NCBI RefSeq assembly: GCF_032118995.1
Contig: NC_092650.1
Coordinates: 3,162,001 to 3,226,000 of the forward strand
Source of the DNA: Asterias amurensis
Lineage: Eukaryota > Echinodermata > Asteroidea > Forcipulatida > Asteriidae
DNA: 64,000 nucleotides
Reading direction: 5' to 3'
Below are positions 194-26,800 of this stretch, piece after piece; position 1 is the stretch's first letter; each line of letters starts with the position of its first letter. The notes below the pieces were generated by a model. It was given only the letters and a program-made list of their open reading frames with translations, was not told the origin of the DNA and searched no databases. The position numbers and the translations under genes are program-made.

Positions 194-1343
194 TCTCCTT
201 TATTTGTACTCTCATTACTCACTAACTGACTCCTACACTCGTCTGTATATTCTACCACAGTGAGTAAACATGTGGATGACCCAGCTCCTATCCGAAGACT
301 CAATTTAGTCTCCTTTATTTGTACTCTCATTACTCACTAACTGACTCCTACGCTCCTCTGTATATTTTATCACAGTGAGTAAACATGTAGATGACCCAGC
401 TCCTATCCGAAGACTCAATTTAGTCTCCTTTATTTGTACTCTCATTACTCACTAACTGACTCCTACCCTCGTCTGTATATTCTGCCACAGTGAGTAAACA
501 TGTAGATGACCCAGCTCCTATCCGAAGACTCAATTTAGTCTCCTTTATTTGTACTCTCATTACTCACTAACTGACTCCTACACTCGTCTGTATATTCTAC
601 CACAGTGAGTAAACATGTGGATGATCCAGCTCCTATCCGAAGACTCAATTTAGTCTCCTTTATTTGTACTCTCATTACTCACTAACTGACTCCTACCCTC
701 GTCTGTATATTCTACCACAGTGAGTAAACATGTGGATGACCCAGCTCCTATCCGAAGACTCAATTTAGTCTCCTTTATTTGTACTCTCATTACTCACTAA
801 CTGACTCCTACCCTCGTCTGTATATTCTACCACAGTGAGTAAACATGTGGATGATCCAGCTCCTATCCGAAGACTCAATTTAGTCTCCTTTATTTGTACT
901 CTCATTACTCACTAACTGACTCCTACCCTCGTCTGTATATTCTACCACAGTGAGTAAACATGTGGATGATCCAGCTCCTATCCGAAGACTCAATTTAGTC
1001 TCCTTTATTTGTACTCTCATTACTCACTAACTGACTCCTACCCTCGTCTGTATATTCTACCACAGTGAGTAAACATGTAGATGACCCAGCTCCTATCCGA
1101 AGACTCAATTTAGTCTCCTTTATTTGTACTCTCATTACTCACTAACTGACTCCTACACTCGTCTGTATATTCTACCACAGTGAGTAAACATGTAGATGAC
1201 CCAGCTCCTATCCGAAGACTCAATTTAGTCTCCTTTATTTGTACTCTCATTACTCACTAACTGACTCCTACACTCGTCTGTATATTCTGCCACAGTGAGT
1301 AAACATGTGGATGACCCAGCTCCTATCCGAAGACTCAATTTAG
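194..1343 (+). repeat. 10 x 115-bp tandem array of a NUP93 3' splice site plus exon start
   Basis: Ten head-to-tail units begin at 194, 309, 424, 539, 654, 769, 884, 999, 1114 and 1229, all exactly 115 bp long. They differ at only a few sites (cactc/gctcc/ccctc, taccac/tatcac/tgccac, gtggatga/gtagatga, gaccc/gatcc). Each unit is 67 nt of intron end (branch-point-like CTCACTAAC, pyrimidine-rich stretch, CCACAG) followed by 48 nt that encode the start of the next NUP93 exon (reading ..[12 protein letters not shown]). Only the tenth unit runs on into the complete exon. In units 1-9 the exon piece runs back into intron sequence and meets an in-frame TAA. There are no spacers, so it is not a CRISPR array. 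Confidence 0.95.
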
Positions 1344-1422
1344 CTCGTCTGATCAGCATGTATACCTCTAAGTTTGAGAACACTGACCCTAGAGAAGCTC
1401 TACAGTATTTCTACATTCTAAG
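1296..1422 (+). CDS. NUP93: NUP93 exon (first in window)
   Basis: The exon follows the CCACAG of the tenth array unit and ends at AG|GTTTGT. It has 2 nt, 41 codons and 2 nt. It encodes ..[18 protein letters not shown].. followed by the conserved [14 protein letters not shown] block. Its first 48 nt are the part copied in every repeat unit. The exact acceptor is inferred from homology and phase. Confidence 0.85.
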
Positions 1423-4400
1423 GTTTGTTAGTCAAATGGTTTGATACAAAGCTTTCTTTGTCTCTAAGGGTTCACTGCACTTAAGAACATTTATTATATG
1501 AATGATAACTACTCCTTTTGCTAAATTCTAATTTTAATACAGTTTGGGCTAAGCCTGGGCGACTAGTGGCTAATATTGATTGCTTAGTCATGTCGTGACT
1601 ACCATTTTTTAACCACTCAGTTATTTGTGCTGCTACGACTACTGCAAAAATAGTCACGACTTACTGCTTTGTGAACCAATTGTGTTGCTCCCGACCATTC
1701 TCGACACCATAGTTTACTTAAGAAACACACAATCAGACATCAGTGACACAATCCTTCAATCCGTTCAGCACGAATTTTACTATATTGCACCTGTGGCAAA
1801 CAATATGCTGCAATGCATCTTGGGAATTAAAATTTGTCGCAACTATTTGCAGTGCGACTAGTCTAGTAGTAAATTTCACTAGTCGCCCAGGCTTAGTTTG
1901 GGCTGAGTTTTCCCACAATTTATATTTTGTTGTTGGTGACAAAGCTGAATATTTGGTCCTATTAATTCCTTTTCATGTTTATCTTCCCAGAGGACTGAAG
2001 GATTCTAAGGGTGAGAATCTGTTCATAAAATGCCTGAGTGAGATGGTGATTGAGACCAGAGAGTTTGATGCTCTCCTCGGCCGTCTCGGGGAGGACGGAA
2101 CCAGACGACCAGGAGCTGTGGATAAATTCCAAGTCAACACTCAGCAGATCTTGGAAACGGTCGCCAAAGACACGGAGGCAAAGGGTTTATTCGAAGATGC
2201 TGTGAAGCTGTATGATCTTGCAAGTGTGAGTATTGTTTCATTTTAAAGGGTTTGGGTACTTTTTTTGTATGACACAATGTCAACAGGTTTTTATTAAACT
2301 TATTTGAGGATAATGGTGGTAGAAAGCTTCCCTTAAAATATTACTTGCTGAGGTGCTGTAGTTTTTGATATATCGTTTGATAACAACGACACAAAGAATA
2401 ATGTTCGTCTTGGGAGATGAAAGTTTTCTCTTGCCCCATGATGATAGCAATCCTTGCGCTCGTAGCATGGTGGGACTCTGGGTACCAGACTCGCTATGCA
2501 ATGCTAGACAACACAGGGACCCTTGGCTCAGGGGACCTTTTATTAGGTCACTGAGTCGGGGGGCTGAGGGCAATACAAGACTAGATTTGTAAGCATCAAC
2601 TGTGTATTATTTTGGATGTTTTTCAATTTTCTTTTTTAAAAGAAATCTTCATACATTACACTAGGATTACAAATTGAATAGATGGCTCGAAATAGGTGTC
2701 AACAACCGCCATCTTTGATGTAAGACAATGGAACAGTACGCGCTGCGCGTGACTCTCGGGCAATGGTAGCTCTTCACGCTTGCACAATCCATCAAATATG
2801 GCAGCTGATGACGCCTATTCAGTAATGCAATCCATCTATAGGGACTGTCAACGCTTTTTAAAAAAAGGTTTTAAACATTTGCATCTTAAAGCCATTGGAC
2901 CCTTTCAGTTCAAAAAAAAAAAAAAAGTTCGCAGATTTACAAATAACCTACGGGGTTTACAGAAGGCAATGGTGAAAGACTTCTCTTGAAATATTATTCC
3001 ATGAAATGCTTTACTTTTTGAGAAAACAGCAAAACAATATAAATTCTCGATAGCGAGAATTACGGATTTATTTTAAACACATGTCATGACACGGCGAAAC
3101 GTGCGAAAACAAGGGTGGGTTTTATTTCCGTTATTTTCTCCCGACTCCGATGACCGATTGAGCCTAAATTTTCACAGGTTTGTTATTTTATATATAAGTT
3201 GTGGTACACAAAGTGTGGGCCTTGGACAACACTGTTTACCGAAAGGGTCCAATGGCTTTAAAGACGTGTTCGACACTCATGCGGTGCTCCTGATGCGCCT
3301 TAGAACAAACTTTGATTTTGGCCCTCTACAAATGACCTTTGATTGATTGATTGATTGATTGATGTCTCTGTTTCAGAACGCTGATAAGGTGTTAGAGATC
3401 TTGAATCGTCTGCTGAGTCCGATTGTGTCGATGCCTAAGAGTCCACAGTCATCTAGACACAGACTACATAAACTAGCAGTAGCCATTGCAGAAAGGTAAC
3501 GTTAGGAATTTTCCACTCGTTATAGAAGAAAAAAAACCCAATAAATACGCACCAATGATTTTTTTTTTTTTTTTTTTTTTTCTTTTTTCCTTCCATTCAT
3601 AGTTTCATACATGCAGATAAGTAATGAATAATGGTCAATACTAAATGTATCTTACAAAATGTATCTTACATTAAAGAACAATACAGTGCAGAATAAATGA
3701 GTGACATCCAGAGAAGGCCTTCTGTAACGGAGCACCCAAAACTGCGGTCGGATAAATCAAGTTTGAAAAATACACGTTGAGTTCCCAGATAGGGTTATAA
3801 ATGTAGTGAGAGATATTTTAGTTCTGACATTGAGTTTTGAATAACGTTTTCATTAGTTTATCATCAACAAGTTGAGCCTGTCCAGTGATTTTAGTCCAGA
3901 TGTTTCAATCCAATATGCAGGAGCGTAGTTCCTCAGCGCTGGCCAAATCGGTGTCTTGTTTCAGGGTGTCTATGAAGGAGAGACATCTTCTACCAACGAG
4001 AAGCCTTGCCTTGTGTGGGCTCCAAGAGGATGGTTGGGCATATTGAATAGCGTTTTCATTTGTTTGACTCTCAACAGATTCCAGGCGCAGTCAATCACAG
4101 GCAACCAATCCAACACCAAGTCATTTCATCTTCTCCTGGATTTAATGACGTACTTTGATCAGTATCATAGCAGAGATCTAGATAGAGCACTAGCGGTAAG
4201 ATATCAGGATGAAGGCTGTCAGCTTATCAAGCTTTGATGCTTAATTCAATTAAATTCAAAGTAACTTATATTTCCTTGTTAACACCTGTAGGTACAAGAT
4301 ACAATATGACGTATAGATGTTCCGAAAAAGCAGGGCTTGTTGAGGAACAGCCTTAAGACAGAAAAGACAGATGAAGACACATGTTTTATACTATGGCTAG

Positions 4401-5648
4401 TTTTATTATAACATGCCCGATATGGCGGCAGAGGGTACTCCCAATGTTCCCAAAGCAATACCATCATTTCAATATGCCTCCCTATAATCTGGATCCCAGT
4501 TTCAGACTTTTTTTCTTGGCAGTGACTCTCATCCCTTGATTTGAATCGGAGTGTTTTATCGTTGATTTTGTTTTGATTGTAGACGATTGATACTCTACAG
4601 CTGGTACCTCTTACTCCAGACACAGTGGATGACAAAGTCAATGCCTTCAAACAATACACAGATGAGGTAGGTGGTTTACGGAACAACAAACTTTAACCAG
4701 TAAAATAATTACCAATAAATATATAATCTGAACACTAATCTAAGATGTACCCACTTTTGCTTATCAAATATTGATACATATTGTACGATACTACTTGTAA
4801 CTCATCAAAATGTAAGGTTTTAATAATAATAACATGATTTATATAGCGCTTATTACAGGGTTTTAAGCGCTGAAACATAAAAAGAAATAAAGACCAAGAA
4901 GTGCTTCATCTGTCAACTTTATAAATATGTGATGTCGCTATTAACATGGTCGTTAAATATTTTGAAAAAATCACTGTGTATGAATTGGTCTTACTGTGTA
5001 TACTTGTATTTGTAAATGTAAATTAATGTTGTATTTGTGTATTTCAGGTCAGAAGAAACATGCCAGACATTTTGGTGTCCACAATGAACATCTTACATTC
5101 CAAGTATAGAGCGACACGAAACAGCAGTCTGCAGAATGCTCAGGGTATGCCTACCATCAGATCAGAGGATGGTGGAAAGGAATCAGTGAGTACTCTTTAA
5201 CCTGTATATATTTGTTATATATATGCGTACGTGTTTAGCCAGAGGGATTAGTATTTACTATTCAGATTCTTTGAGCGACAGTTTTTAGGTTAACTTCTTT
5301 TAATTCCGGGCATAATCCCTCTGGGTTTTTTTTTGGGGGGGGGATTTAGTACCATTTTTCTGTGAATGGATATTGTTTGTATGTATTATTTTTAATGCTG
5401 AATAAACAATAATTATTATTATCTTCCCATCTCAAGTGGCATTCCTATATATGCTTTTATGTTAAATTAATGGGATATAATTTGTAGAAACATGTTTAAA
5501 ATATATTTTCTTGTCGTTCTCTTTTCAGTACCTGGCTCACCTGAGAAAACAAGCAAAATCTCTGATCACATTCGCCGGAATGCTTCCATATCGAATGCCA
5601 GGGGATACGAACGCAAGGCTTGTACAGATGGAAGTACTTATGAATTGA
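1296..5648 (+). CDS. NUP93: Nucleoporin NUP93, C-terminal part (7 exons, 5' end outside window)
   Basis: NUP93 is a Nic96-family alpha-solenoid scaffold of the inner ring of the nuclear pore. Exons 1296-1422, 1991-2225, 3377-3495, 4078-4195, 4583-4666, 5048-5185 and 5529-5648 join with consistent phases into about 312 residues ending at TGA 5646-5648. Recognisable family stretches in order are [86 protein letters not shown] and the hallmark C-terminus [14 protein letters not shown]. The human protein is about 819 residues, so roughly the first 500 lie left of the window. The gene is convergent with ARL2BP. Its most 5' intron here ends in a ten-fold repeated acceptor. Confidence 0.95.
1551..1894. 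mobile_element. 344-bp MITE with 10-bp target duplication in NUP93 intron
   Basis: Terminal inverted repeats AAGCCTGGGCGACTAGTG are perfect at both ends. The flanks carry the exact 10-bp direct repeat AGTTTGGGCT (1541-1550 and 1895-1904), a target site duplication. A 9-11 bp duplication is typical of Mutator-like elements. No coding capacity is seen. Confidence 0.88.
1991..2225 (+). CDS. NUP93: NUP93 exon
   Basis: Acceptor CTTCCCAG, donor GTGAGT. One base completes the previous Arg codon, then 78 codons follow ([19 protein letters not shown].. to ..[13 protein letters not shown]). It is the largest NUP93 exon in the window. Confidence 0.93.
2247..2370 (+). mobile_element. Family D MITE fragment (TTAA)
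   Basis: It starts after TTAA (2243-2246) with AGGGTTTGGGTAC and carries the family core AAAATATTACTTGCTGAGGT. The right half is missing. It begins only about 20 bp after a NUP93 donor site. Confidence 0.65.
2371..2885. other. Intron stretch, mostly unassigned
   Basis: No exon is seen. About 2700-2825 (GCGCTGCGCGTG.., ATCAAATATGGC) resembles 44930-45035 and is probably a low-copy repeat shared by the two loci. Confidence 0.4.
2890..3257 (-). mobile_element. Family C MITE, copy 1
   Basis: Flanked by TTAA on both sides. The ends are AGCCATTGGACCC and GGGTCCAATGGCT. An internal short inverted repeat CTCGATAGCGAG is present. It matches copies at 16996, 26484 and 37535. Confidence 0.85.
3339..3363 (+). 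repeat. (GATT)n microsatellite next to NUP93 acceptor
   Basis: About six GATT units lie 13 bp upstream of the exon at 3377, so they occupy the region where a branch point is expected. Confidence 0.9.
3377..3495 (+). CDS. NUP93: NUP93 exon
   Basis: Acceptor TGTTTCAG, donor GTAACG. It has 39 codons plus 2 nt, starting [15 protein letters not shown] and ending AVAIAE. The acceptor lies 13 bp after a (GATT)n microsatellite. Confidence 0.93.
3496..4077. other. NUP93 intron, T-tract and unassigned sequence
   Basis: It contains a run of about 22 T near 3560-3582 and no exon or clear mobile element. Confidence 0.5.
4078..4195 (+). CDS. NUP93: NUP93 exon
   Basis: Acceptor CTCAACAG, donor GTAAGA. 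One base completes Arg, then 39 codons including [20 protein letters not shown] follow, a well conserved helical segment of the family. Confidence 0.93.
4583..4666 (+). CDS. NUP93: NUP93 exon
   Basis: Acceptor ATTGTAG, donor GTAGGT. It has 28 codons in phase 0: [20 protein letters not shown] and on to YTDE. Confidence 0.92.
4826..4890. mobile_element. SINE-tail-like fragment
   Basis: AATAATAATAACA followed by TTTATATAGCGC and AAGCGCT matches the 3' tail signature of the SINE at 54664, so it is probably a short inverted tail fragment in a NUP93 intron. Confidence 0.5.
5048..5185 (+). CDS. NUP93: NUP93 exon
   Basis: Acceptor TATTTCAG, donor GTGAGT. It has 46 codons in phase 0, [20 protein letters not shown] and on to EDGGKES. 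Confidence 0.93.
5529..5648 (+). CDS. NUP93: NUP93 last coding exon
   Basis: Acceptor CTTTTCAG. It has 39 codons and TGA. It encodes [18 protein letters not shown] and then [11 protein letters not shown], the near-invariant NUP93 C-terminus. Confidence 0.95.
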
Positions 5649-23897: not shown

Positions 23898-26800
23898 CAC
23901 AGACAGACAGACACACAGACAGACAAACACCCCAACACCCCCAACAAACAAACTATATTTTCTCTGGTTGAAATGATTTTGAATATAAATCATTTCATTT
24001 CTATTTATCGATTTTTGATTGAATGGAAATAAGTGTCTGTCACTTTAACAAATATTTGTTGTGTAGGTGTATATAGGTTAAGCCTTTAAACAACATTGCA
24101 GTTTGAAGGTTGCGTGTCCCATGACACTAATTTTGGTGTCACTTTAAAAAAAACTTGCTGTAAAGACACTGGACACTATTGGTAATTGTCAAAGAACAGT
24201 CTGCTCACTTGGTGTATCTCAACATATGCATAAAATAACAAGCCTCTGAAAATTTGAGCTCAATTGGTCGTCGAAGTTGCGAGATAATAATGAAAGAAAA
24301 AACACCCTTGTCACACGAAGTTGTGTGCTTTCAGATGGTTGATTTCGAGACCTCATTCTAAACTGAGGTCTCGAAATCAAATTCGTGGAAAATTACTTCT
24401 TTCTCAAAAACTACTTTTGTCTTCAAAAGGAGCCGTTTCTCACAATGTTTTATACCATCAACCTCTCCCCATTACTCGTTACCAAATAAGGTTTTATGCT
24501 AATAATTATTTTGAGAAATAACCAATAGTGTTCACTGCCTTTAGTGTCCCTAAAAATACTGTTTTCTGTGTCTTGTAACTTTAAAAACACTTGCTGTGAA
24601 TGTGGATATAGGTTAAGTCTATAAACAACATTAAATTTTAAAGGTTACGTGTCCCATAAAATACTAGTTAGACGTAATTAATCTATTATTTTGATATACA
24701 CATTTACCAAATACATTGTCCATGTGTTCGGCTCTATAGCAAGGGATATACACTGTACTAGCCCTATACACACTGTACATACTACTAATAGACCCTGTGT
24801 GGTATTAAAAGCCGTCATAACACCGTCACGCGCTGTTGATTGGCATTTCAAAAATAGTGCAACGACTTTAGCATTATAAGGAAGATTGTTTAATTTTGTT
24901 AAATGTAGATCAATCAATCATAACGTAATAAGAAACATTTATAATGGTCAAGAATTGTTTTAATTTGACCCAAAAACTTGTTAAAAAGTGGTATTTGACA
25001 GAGGATGCACACAAACGCACTCGGGAAAATGTAAAAATCCGTCCGTCTTAAAGGAACACGTTGCCTTGGATCGGACGAGTTGGTCAAAACAAAAGCGTTT
25101 GTAACCGTTTTTATATAATGCATATGGTTGGAAAGATGTTTTAAAAGTAGAATAAAATGATCCACACAAGTTTGCCTCGAAATTGCTTGGTTTTCCTTCT
25201 ACTGTGCGAACTAACACCGTCAGCCATTTATGGGAGTCAAAATTTTGACCCCCATAAATGGCCGGCGTGTTAGTCGACGAGGTAAAAGGAAAACCACGCA
25301 ATTTCAAAGCATGTTTGTGTGGATCATTGTATTCTACGTTTACAACATCTTTCTACCCATATGCATTTTATAAAAAACGGTTACAAACGCTTTTCAAAGG
25401 CCAACTCGACCGATCCAAGGCAACGTGTTCCTTTAAAGGAACACGTTGCCTTGGATCGGACGAGTTGGTCAAAACAAAAGCGTTTGTAACCGTTTTTTAT
25501 AAAATGCATATGGTTGGAAAGATGTTTTAAAAGTAGAATACAATGATCCACACAAGTTTGCCTCGAAATTGCGTGGTTTTCCTTCTACTGTGCGAACTAA
25601 CATGGTCGGCCAATTATGGGAGTCAAAATTTTGACCCCCATAAATGGCCGACGTGTTAGTCGACAAGGTAAAAGGAAAACCACGCAATTTCGAGGCATGT
25701 TTGTGTGGATCATTGTATTCTACTTTTACAACATCTTTCTACCCATATGCATTTTATAAAAAACGGTTACAAACGCTTTTCAAAGGCCAACTCGACCGAT
25801 CCAAGGCAACGTGTTCCTTTAATGTTCTCACTCGGTCGGGAAGACGTCTCCAACCAAGGCTTGTGGCTTCTGATAAAAGCGCATATCCGTCACTCACAGT
25901 GACGCTCAATGCGCTTTAACATGCAGTATTTTCCTGCCTGCAAGGTATGTGGGACTACGTTTGAATTATGAGATCTACTCCTTTTGCATGCGTGGTACCA
26001 TGTAATGATTTACAAGGTGCTGTGGCGCAACGTACTGCCAATCAAACCAGGATCGAACACCGGGGCGAACCCCCTCTTGTCGATAGGCGCACTCACTGCA
26101 CTGGGTTATTTTACGTGCGTTACACAACACACGAGACCAACGCCTTTACGTCCCATCCGTAGGACGAAATGCCCCGATCACTTTTCAACGAAGATCGGCG
26201 CCCTCGCTATAGGTTCTGTTTACTTGCAATAATAGATTTACATTGCTAAATTTCAACTGGACACGTCTAAAAAATAAAATTGTTATTACCTAATACAGAG
26301 AGCTGGATTGGCATCTAAACTAAATGTGTACGAGATTTATATGCTGGTATTAATGATTCAAATTAAGTAGGCACTACCCCATTAATGTTTGTAATCCTTT
26401 CCAGCTCATGCAAATCATCTGTGCAATATTAACTACTCTGAATGTTCATCACAATGCTTACTAGATGGCGCTCGAAGTTTAATAAAGCCATTATACACTT
26501 TTGAAACAGAAAAAAATAATAAAAGTTCACAGATTTACAAATAACTTACAGTGTTTACAGAAGGTCATGGTGAAAGACTTCTCTTGAAATATTATTCCAT
26601 ATAATGCTTTACCTTTTGAGAAAACATTAAAACATTTATCAATTCTCGACAGCGAGAATTACGGATTTATAGTAAATACTTGTCATGATACGGCGAAACG
26701 TGCGGAAACAAGGGTGGGTTTTACTGTTATTTTCTCCCGACTCCGATGACCGATTATTCTCCCGACTCCGATGACCGATTGAGCCTAAACTATGACAGGT

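Follow-up and report, generated by a model that had tools for sequence, protein, structure and literature searches.

The window analysed here, 64,000 nt of the Asterias amurensis genome (contig NC_092650.1, positions 3,162,001 to 3,226,000), opens inside NUP93, the gene for a core nucleoporin, which is read in the forward direction. This identity, proposed in an earlier note made from the letters alone, is confirmed by matches to Pfam Nic96 (1.1e-57) and to NUP93 in the PDB (5.2e-74), and the public A. amurensis NUP93 (P0079, 828 aa) agrees at every one of the 312 residues compared (100% identity). Chaining of GT-AG exons across the window and the 20 kb upstream of it, matched against P0079, yields 19 coding exons of 60-292 nt that reproduce the 828-aa protein exactly; the host gene is intact. 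Exons 1 to 12 lie upstream of the window; exon 12 has its last base at window coordinate -469 (in L009), and its 3′ end with the donor reads AAC ATT CAG ACA CAA GTT T|GTAAGT. Within the window follow exon 13 (1296..1422, 127 nt, donor AAG|GTTTGT), exon 14 (1991-2225), exon 15 (3377-3495), exon 16 (4078-4195), exon 17 (4583-4666), exon 18 (5048-5185) and exon 19 (5529-5648, stop TGA). The codon split between exons 12 and 13 (T|TG) specifies Leu in both P0079 and its Acanthaster counterpart P0080, which agrees, at the level of the gene model, with the exon 13 start previously placed at CCACAG|TGAGT. Skipping of exon 13 was considered and rejected, its 127 nt not being a multiple of three, with the result that the frame would shift.

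The border between intron 12 and exon 13 is occupied by an array of ten 115-bp units on the forward strand (194..1343), beginning at 194, 309, 424, 539, 654, 769, 884, 999, 1114 and 1229. Each head-to-tail unit consists of the last 67 nt of intron 12 and the first 48 nt of exon 13, and the array is bounded by whole units at both ends: on the left, the flanking sequence runs ..GTATACAA|TCTCC, and on the right the array closes with ..TTTAG|CTCG, as against ..TTTAG|TCTCC at unit-unit borders. Both the TRF result (period 115, 10.0 copies, 97% matches, 0% indels, score 2181) and our unit table bear out the border-spanning decacopy repeat first described in the earlier note. Only seven of the 115 columns vary, five in the intronic part (44, 48, 59, 61 and 62) and two in the coding part (81 and 87); the latter are both third codon positions, and both are silent. 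Units 6 and 7 are identical, and unit 2 departs furthest from the consensus, at five positions.

A genome search with the unit, which skips very common words and scores the best candidates only, returned ten matches, every one of them inside the array. On this evidence the unit does not look like a dispersed repeat, nor did the search report the exon 13 start anywhere else. A scan of the window with Rfam at gathering scores gave no matches. An antisense gene was also rejected, since the reverse-strand frames touching the array (frames of at least 40 codons were considered) reach at most 62 codons and are merely repetitive. Tandem arrays as such are common on this chromosome: 190 kb of random stretches (19 of 20 drawn, one being left out for overlapping the window) contain four arrays with a period of at least 50, at least three copies and at least 90% match, or roughly 20 per Mb, so that chance alone should bring some of them into contact with splice borders.

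The intronic part of the tenth unit (1229..1295) carries the branch-site-like motif CACTAAC and the CACAG acceptor that fits the public protein. Nine decoy acceptors precede it in units 1-9 (194..1180, forward strand), their first exon bases being 261, 376, 491, 606, 721, 836, 951, 1066 and 1181, and, as had been claimed, all ten acceptors face the one donor of exon 13. Intron 12 would measure 729 nt to acceptor 1 and 1764 nt to acceptor 10. At the chaining step the ten acceptors were tied and the tenth was chosen by tie-break; this is the right choice because only the tenth runs on into the remaining protein. Joining exon 12 to acceptors 1-9 with the donor at 1422 would give exons of 1162, 1047, 932, 817, 702, 587, 472, 357 and 242 nt, respectively. 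The in-frame TAA predicted after the nine decoys is present in nine of nine cases, ending at exon offset 80, and the protein would stop after 541 aa, compared with the 127-nt exon and 828 aa from acceptor 10.

This TAA sits within the CACTAAC of the following unit. From its motif, CACTAAC (columns 27-33) is likely to be the branch site of the unit; its A lies 35 nt before the G of the AG, with an AG-free interval between, and CTGAC, four bases beyond CACTAAC, is a second candidate. Neither CACTAAC nor CACAG (columns 63-67) contains a variable column, and both are intact in all ten units. The exonic 48 nt fall into three types, GC (units 1, 5 and 10), AC (units 2, 3, 8 and 9) and GT (units 4, 6 and 7), and with only these three the unit-specific variants cannot label individual acceptors in mRNA as had been suggested.

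A feature absent from the earlier note, and new here, is a GTGAGT donor motif overlapping each acceptor. Ten such donor-like sites (ACA|GTGAGT; 260..1295, forward strand) have their first bases at 260, 375, 490, 605, 720, 835, 950, 1065, 1180 and 1295, and in each unit a single G is shared by the acceptor CACAG|TGAGT and the donor-like CACA|GTGAGT. Scored with a matrix built from the 18 donors of NUP93, the site reaches 6.31 bits, and 12 of the 18 real donors, each left out in turn (range 1.01-11.21 bits), score lower; this result leans on the look-alike TCA|GTGAGT of exon 18, without which the site scores 3.91 bits and only three of the 18 are lower. The predicted U1 pairing is -5.4 kcal/mol, compared with -4.3 to -10.1 for the real donors and -5.7 for the donor of exon 13 itself. 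Since 11 of the 610 GTs in the other 17 NUP93 introns also reach 6.31 bits, the overlapping motif is credible as a cryptic donor but unremarkable, its score falling inside the span of the real ones.

Pairing acceptor k with the donor-like site that overlaps the acceptor of unit k+1 would define nine possible pseudo-exons of 114 nt (261..1294, forward strand), all nine of in-frame length and all nine with an in-frame TAA. Neighbouring pseudo-exons would be mutually exclusive because the site between them is common to both. Use of a donor inside the array leaves CCACA|TGAGT and destroys that acceptor; shortening the array by unit-donor-to-unit-acceptor splicing would therefore give no normal mRNA. 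Recursive splicing was rejected on similar grounds of sequence, since exon 12 ends in T and the ligated GTTT|TGAGT forms no new donor. Two further sites occur in intron 12 outside the array. Another AGTGAGT (GTAGTGAGT; donor 4.49 bits) lies at window coordinate -318 (L009), and at 50-61, about 140 nt before the array, ACCAG|GTAAAT combines a donor of 7.28 bits with an acceptor of 4.31 bits at one cut, making it a candidate dual-specific site of the classical kind.

What distinguishes the tenth acceptor from the rest is not apparent in its strength. Units 3 and 10 score 3.50 bits, seven units 2.55 and unit 2 -0.10 on a small matrix, on which the real NUP93 acceptors range from -1.17 to 10.96 bits; several unused AGs elsewhere in intron 12 exceed 3.50 (e.g., 4.94 at -173 and 4.31 at 56). 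Local sequence, as judged by this small matrix, would leave the selectivity for acceptor 10 unexplained, and it is likely that position decides. The portion of PMC5389562 drawn on here reports that duplicated 3′ splice sites in vitro can bind two U2AF or two U2 snRNPs at once, that splicing is inhibited when two such sites are occupied concurrently, and that duplicates of the beta-globin 3′ splice site are spliced exclusively to the distal site, very inefficiently. The distal-site result supports choice of the last site and, at the same time, counts against easy splicing of a transcript with ten.

Mean pairwise divergence of the units is 2.3% (intronic part 2.4%, exonic part 2.1%). All four combinations of letters occur between units in four of the six informative column pairs, a test that used the two commonest letters per column and dropped the third letter of unit 2 at column 44. 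Exchange between units, as had been proposed, is indicated by this signature, recurrent mutation being an alternative source of the combinations. Given so few changes, the intact branch motifs and AGs of all ten units are expected without selection. Of the single changes possible in the exonic 48 nt, 32 of 144 are silent, as are 17 of the 48 transitions, and two silent variants out of two are consequently weak evidence for selection.

This architecture has a name, missing from the earlier note: the array belongs to the minisatellites called "mirages" in amphioxus, which are described in the consulted parts of PMC3087553 and PMC3902484 as tandem duplications of intron/exon borders. The amphioxus hosts named there are Adh3 (Canestro 2002), the globins BflGb6 and BflGb9, TnC and PGBD5; copy number varies between haplotypes, and the Adh3 repeat is somatically unstable. 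The repeats of Adh3, TnC and one globin gene are reported to leave regular splicing undisturbed, and the same is argued by analogy for PGBD5. The NUP93 array likewise has a unit spanning the exon/intron border, an intact host gene and signs of exchange between units, and most closely recalls the BflGb6 mirage, in which the 3′ end of an intron and the 5′ part of an exon are duplicated. The BflGb6 haplotypes carry six and three units of 150-160 bp that are 81-100% alike, whereas NUP93, represented by one haplotype, has ten units of a constant 115 nt; each of the latter contains an AG and an overlapping GTGAGT, while AG/GT signals are described in many, but not all, of the amphioxus repeats. The present mirage, from a starfish, is also known here from sequence alone, in contrast to amphioxus mirages with reported splicing. 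Exact-word matching in open-licence papers found no echinoderm mirage among reports of border-spanning repeats, and the NUP93 array suggests that these minisatellites are not confined to amphioxus.

We therefore favour, with a probability of about 0.8, a passively tolerated mirage minisatellite in which most transcripts use acceptor 10. A tandem duplication that by chance took in the border between intron 12 and exon 13 would have been amplified, the units being partly homogenised by exchange. In the RNA, units 1-9 would behave as intron and exon 12 would mostly be joined to the tenth acceptor, which would win by exon definition as the nearest (127 nt) upstream of the donor at 1422. Errors at units 1-9 would meet the in-frame TAA and lead to nonsense-mediated decay, and the array would be tolerated rather than selected. 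The exact 828-aa protein, which only acceptor 10 allows, argues for the mirage reading. Against this reading, the public sequence is presumably a computer prediction that would pick this acceptor for its open frame alone. Also against it, the 242-nt exon of acceptor 9 falls inside the range of NUP93 coding exons, so that length alone would not exclude this acceptor.

Four other explanations were weighed. The one that survives best, though we consider it improbable, is that all ten acceptors are appreciably used in a stochastic manner, that mRNA falls in proportion to array length, and that this length is a quantitative variant under purifying selection. The near-equal acceptor scores of nine of the ten units are in keeping with such leakage, as are the joint binding of two 3′ splice sites and the resulting inhibition in vitro (PMC5389562, in the part cited); against it, the reference animal carries a ten-unit array in a core nucleoporin gene.

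Somewhat less probable still is the regulated poison-exon switch raised in the earlier note, whereby decoys or 114-nt pseudo-exons would be used on purpose and lower NUP93 according to tissue or state. All nine decoys bear stops, the nine pseudo-exons combine frame length with a TAA, and the overlapping donors lie within the range of real ones. The stop, however, is simply the CTAAC letters read in frame, and 114 nt follows from a 115-nt unit; neither needs selection, and many GTs score as high as these donors (the 11 of 610 intronic GTs outside intron 12). The dual sites of human UBC, too, are described as showing no tissue or feedback regulation in the part of PMC10809524 drawn on here, and the amphioxus accounts consulted are silent on regulation. 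We find nothing behind the claim of a switch beyond the stops themselves.

Slightly further down the scale, and quite doubtful, is an array that sets NUP93 output as a ladder of decoys tunable by its length, with U1 and U2 competing on every unit and the decoy products being destroyed; were this true, the gain or loss of units, whether inherited or somatic, would alter nuclear-pore supply. Least credible of all is an assembly artefact, with fewer real units and assembler stutter, for although the ten units are known here from one assembly, and the cited parts of PMC3087553 and PMC3902484 relate that an amphioxus mirage looked aberrantly assembled in the draft genome and that PGBD5 repeat numbers differ between two amphioxus genome records, HiFi reads (mean 12.5 kb, 22.7x; PMC10625585, in part) span the 1.15 kb and its unique flanks, and the units, with seven variable columns, differ by more (2.3%) than the 0.96% heterozygosity given for another A. 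amurensis sample in the part of PMC11090083 consulted.

The NUP93 array may be set beside two other systems. Like the dual-specific arrays of UBC and VCX3A (PMC10809524), it has, once per tandem unit, a motif that could in principle act as donor and as acceptor. In UBC the units are coding, a multiple of three in length, and an AG|GT core is cut at one point for both uses; in NUP93 the sequence is CACAGTGAGT, the acceptor being cut after the G and the donor before it, so that the cuts are one base apart (A|G|T), and the units are partly noncoding and stop-bearing, with dual use putative. As in intron gain by tandem genomic duplication (the Rogers model; potato RdRp, PMC4974935), duplicated splice signals would be absorbed by splicing, but in NUP93 an existing intron has been lengthened and no new intron formed. 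The array may represent an intermediate for intron lengthening or origin through tandem duplication.

Choice of the 3′ splice site has previously been probed with two-copy constructs (e.g., PMC5389562, in the part seen), and NUP93 offers a natural locus with ten sites. The profile of rare decoy use would separate exon definition, with a peak near unit 9, from first-come selection, with a peak near unit 1, and from stochastic choice, which would be flat.

Other tandem repeats were encountered along the chromosome. TRF finds two tandem 386-bp copies, 96% alike, at 25048-25822 of the window, the start of which we take to resemble a dispersed starfish repeat. Elsewhere on the chromosome, a tandem repeat with a 238-bp unit, at least 13.5 copies and 92% match occupies L018:6729-10000, reaching the end of that stretch.
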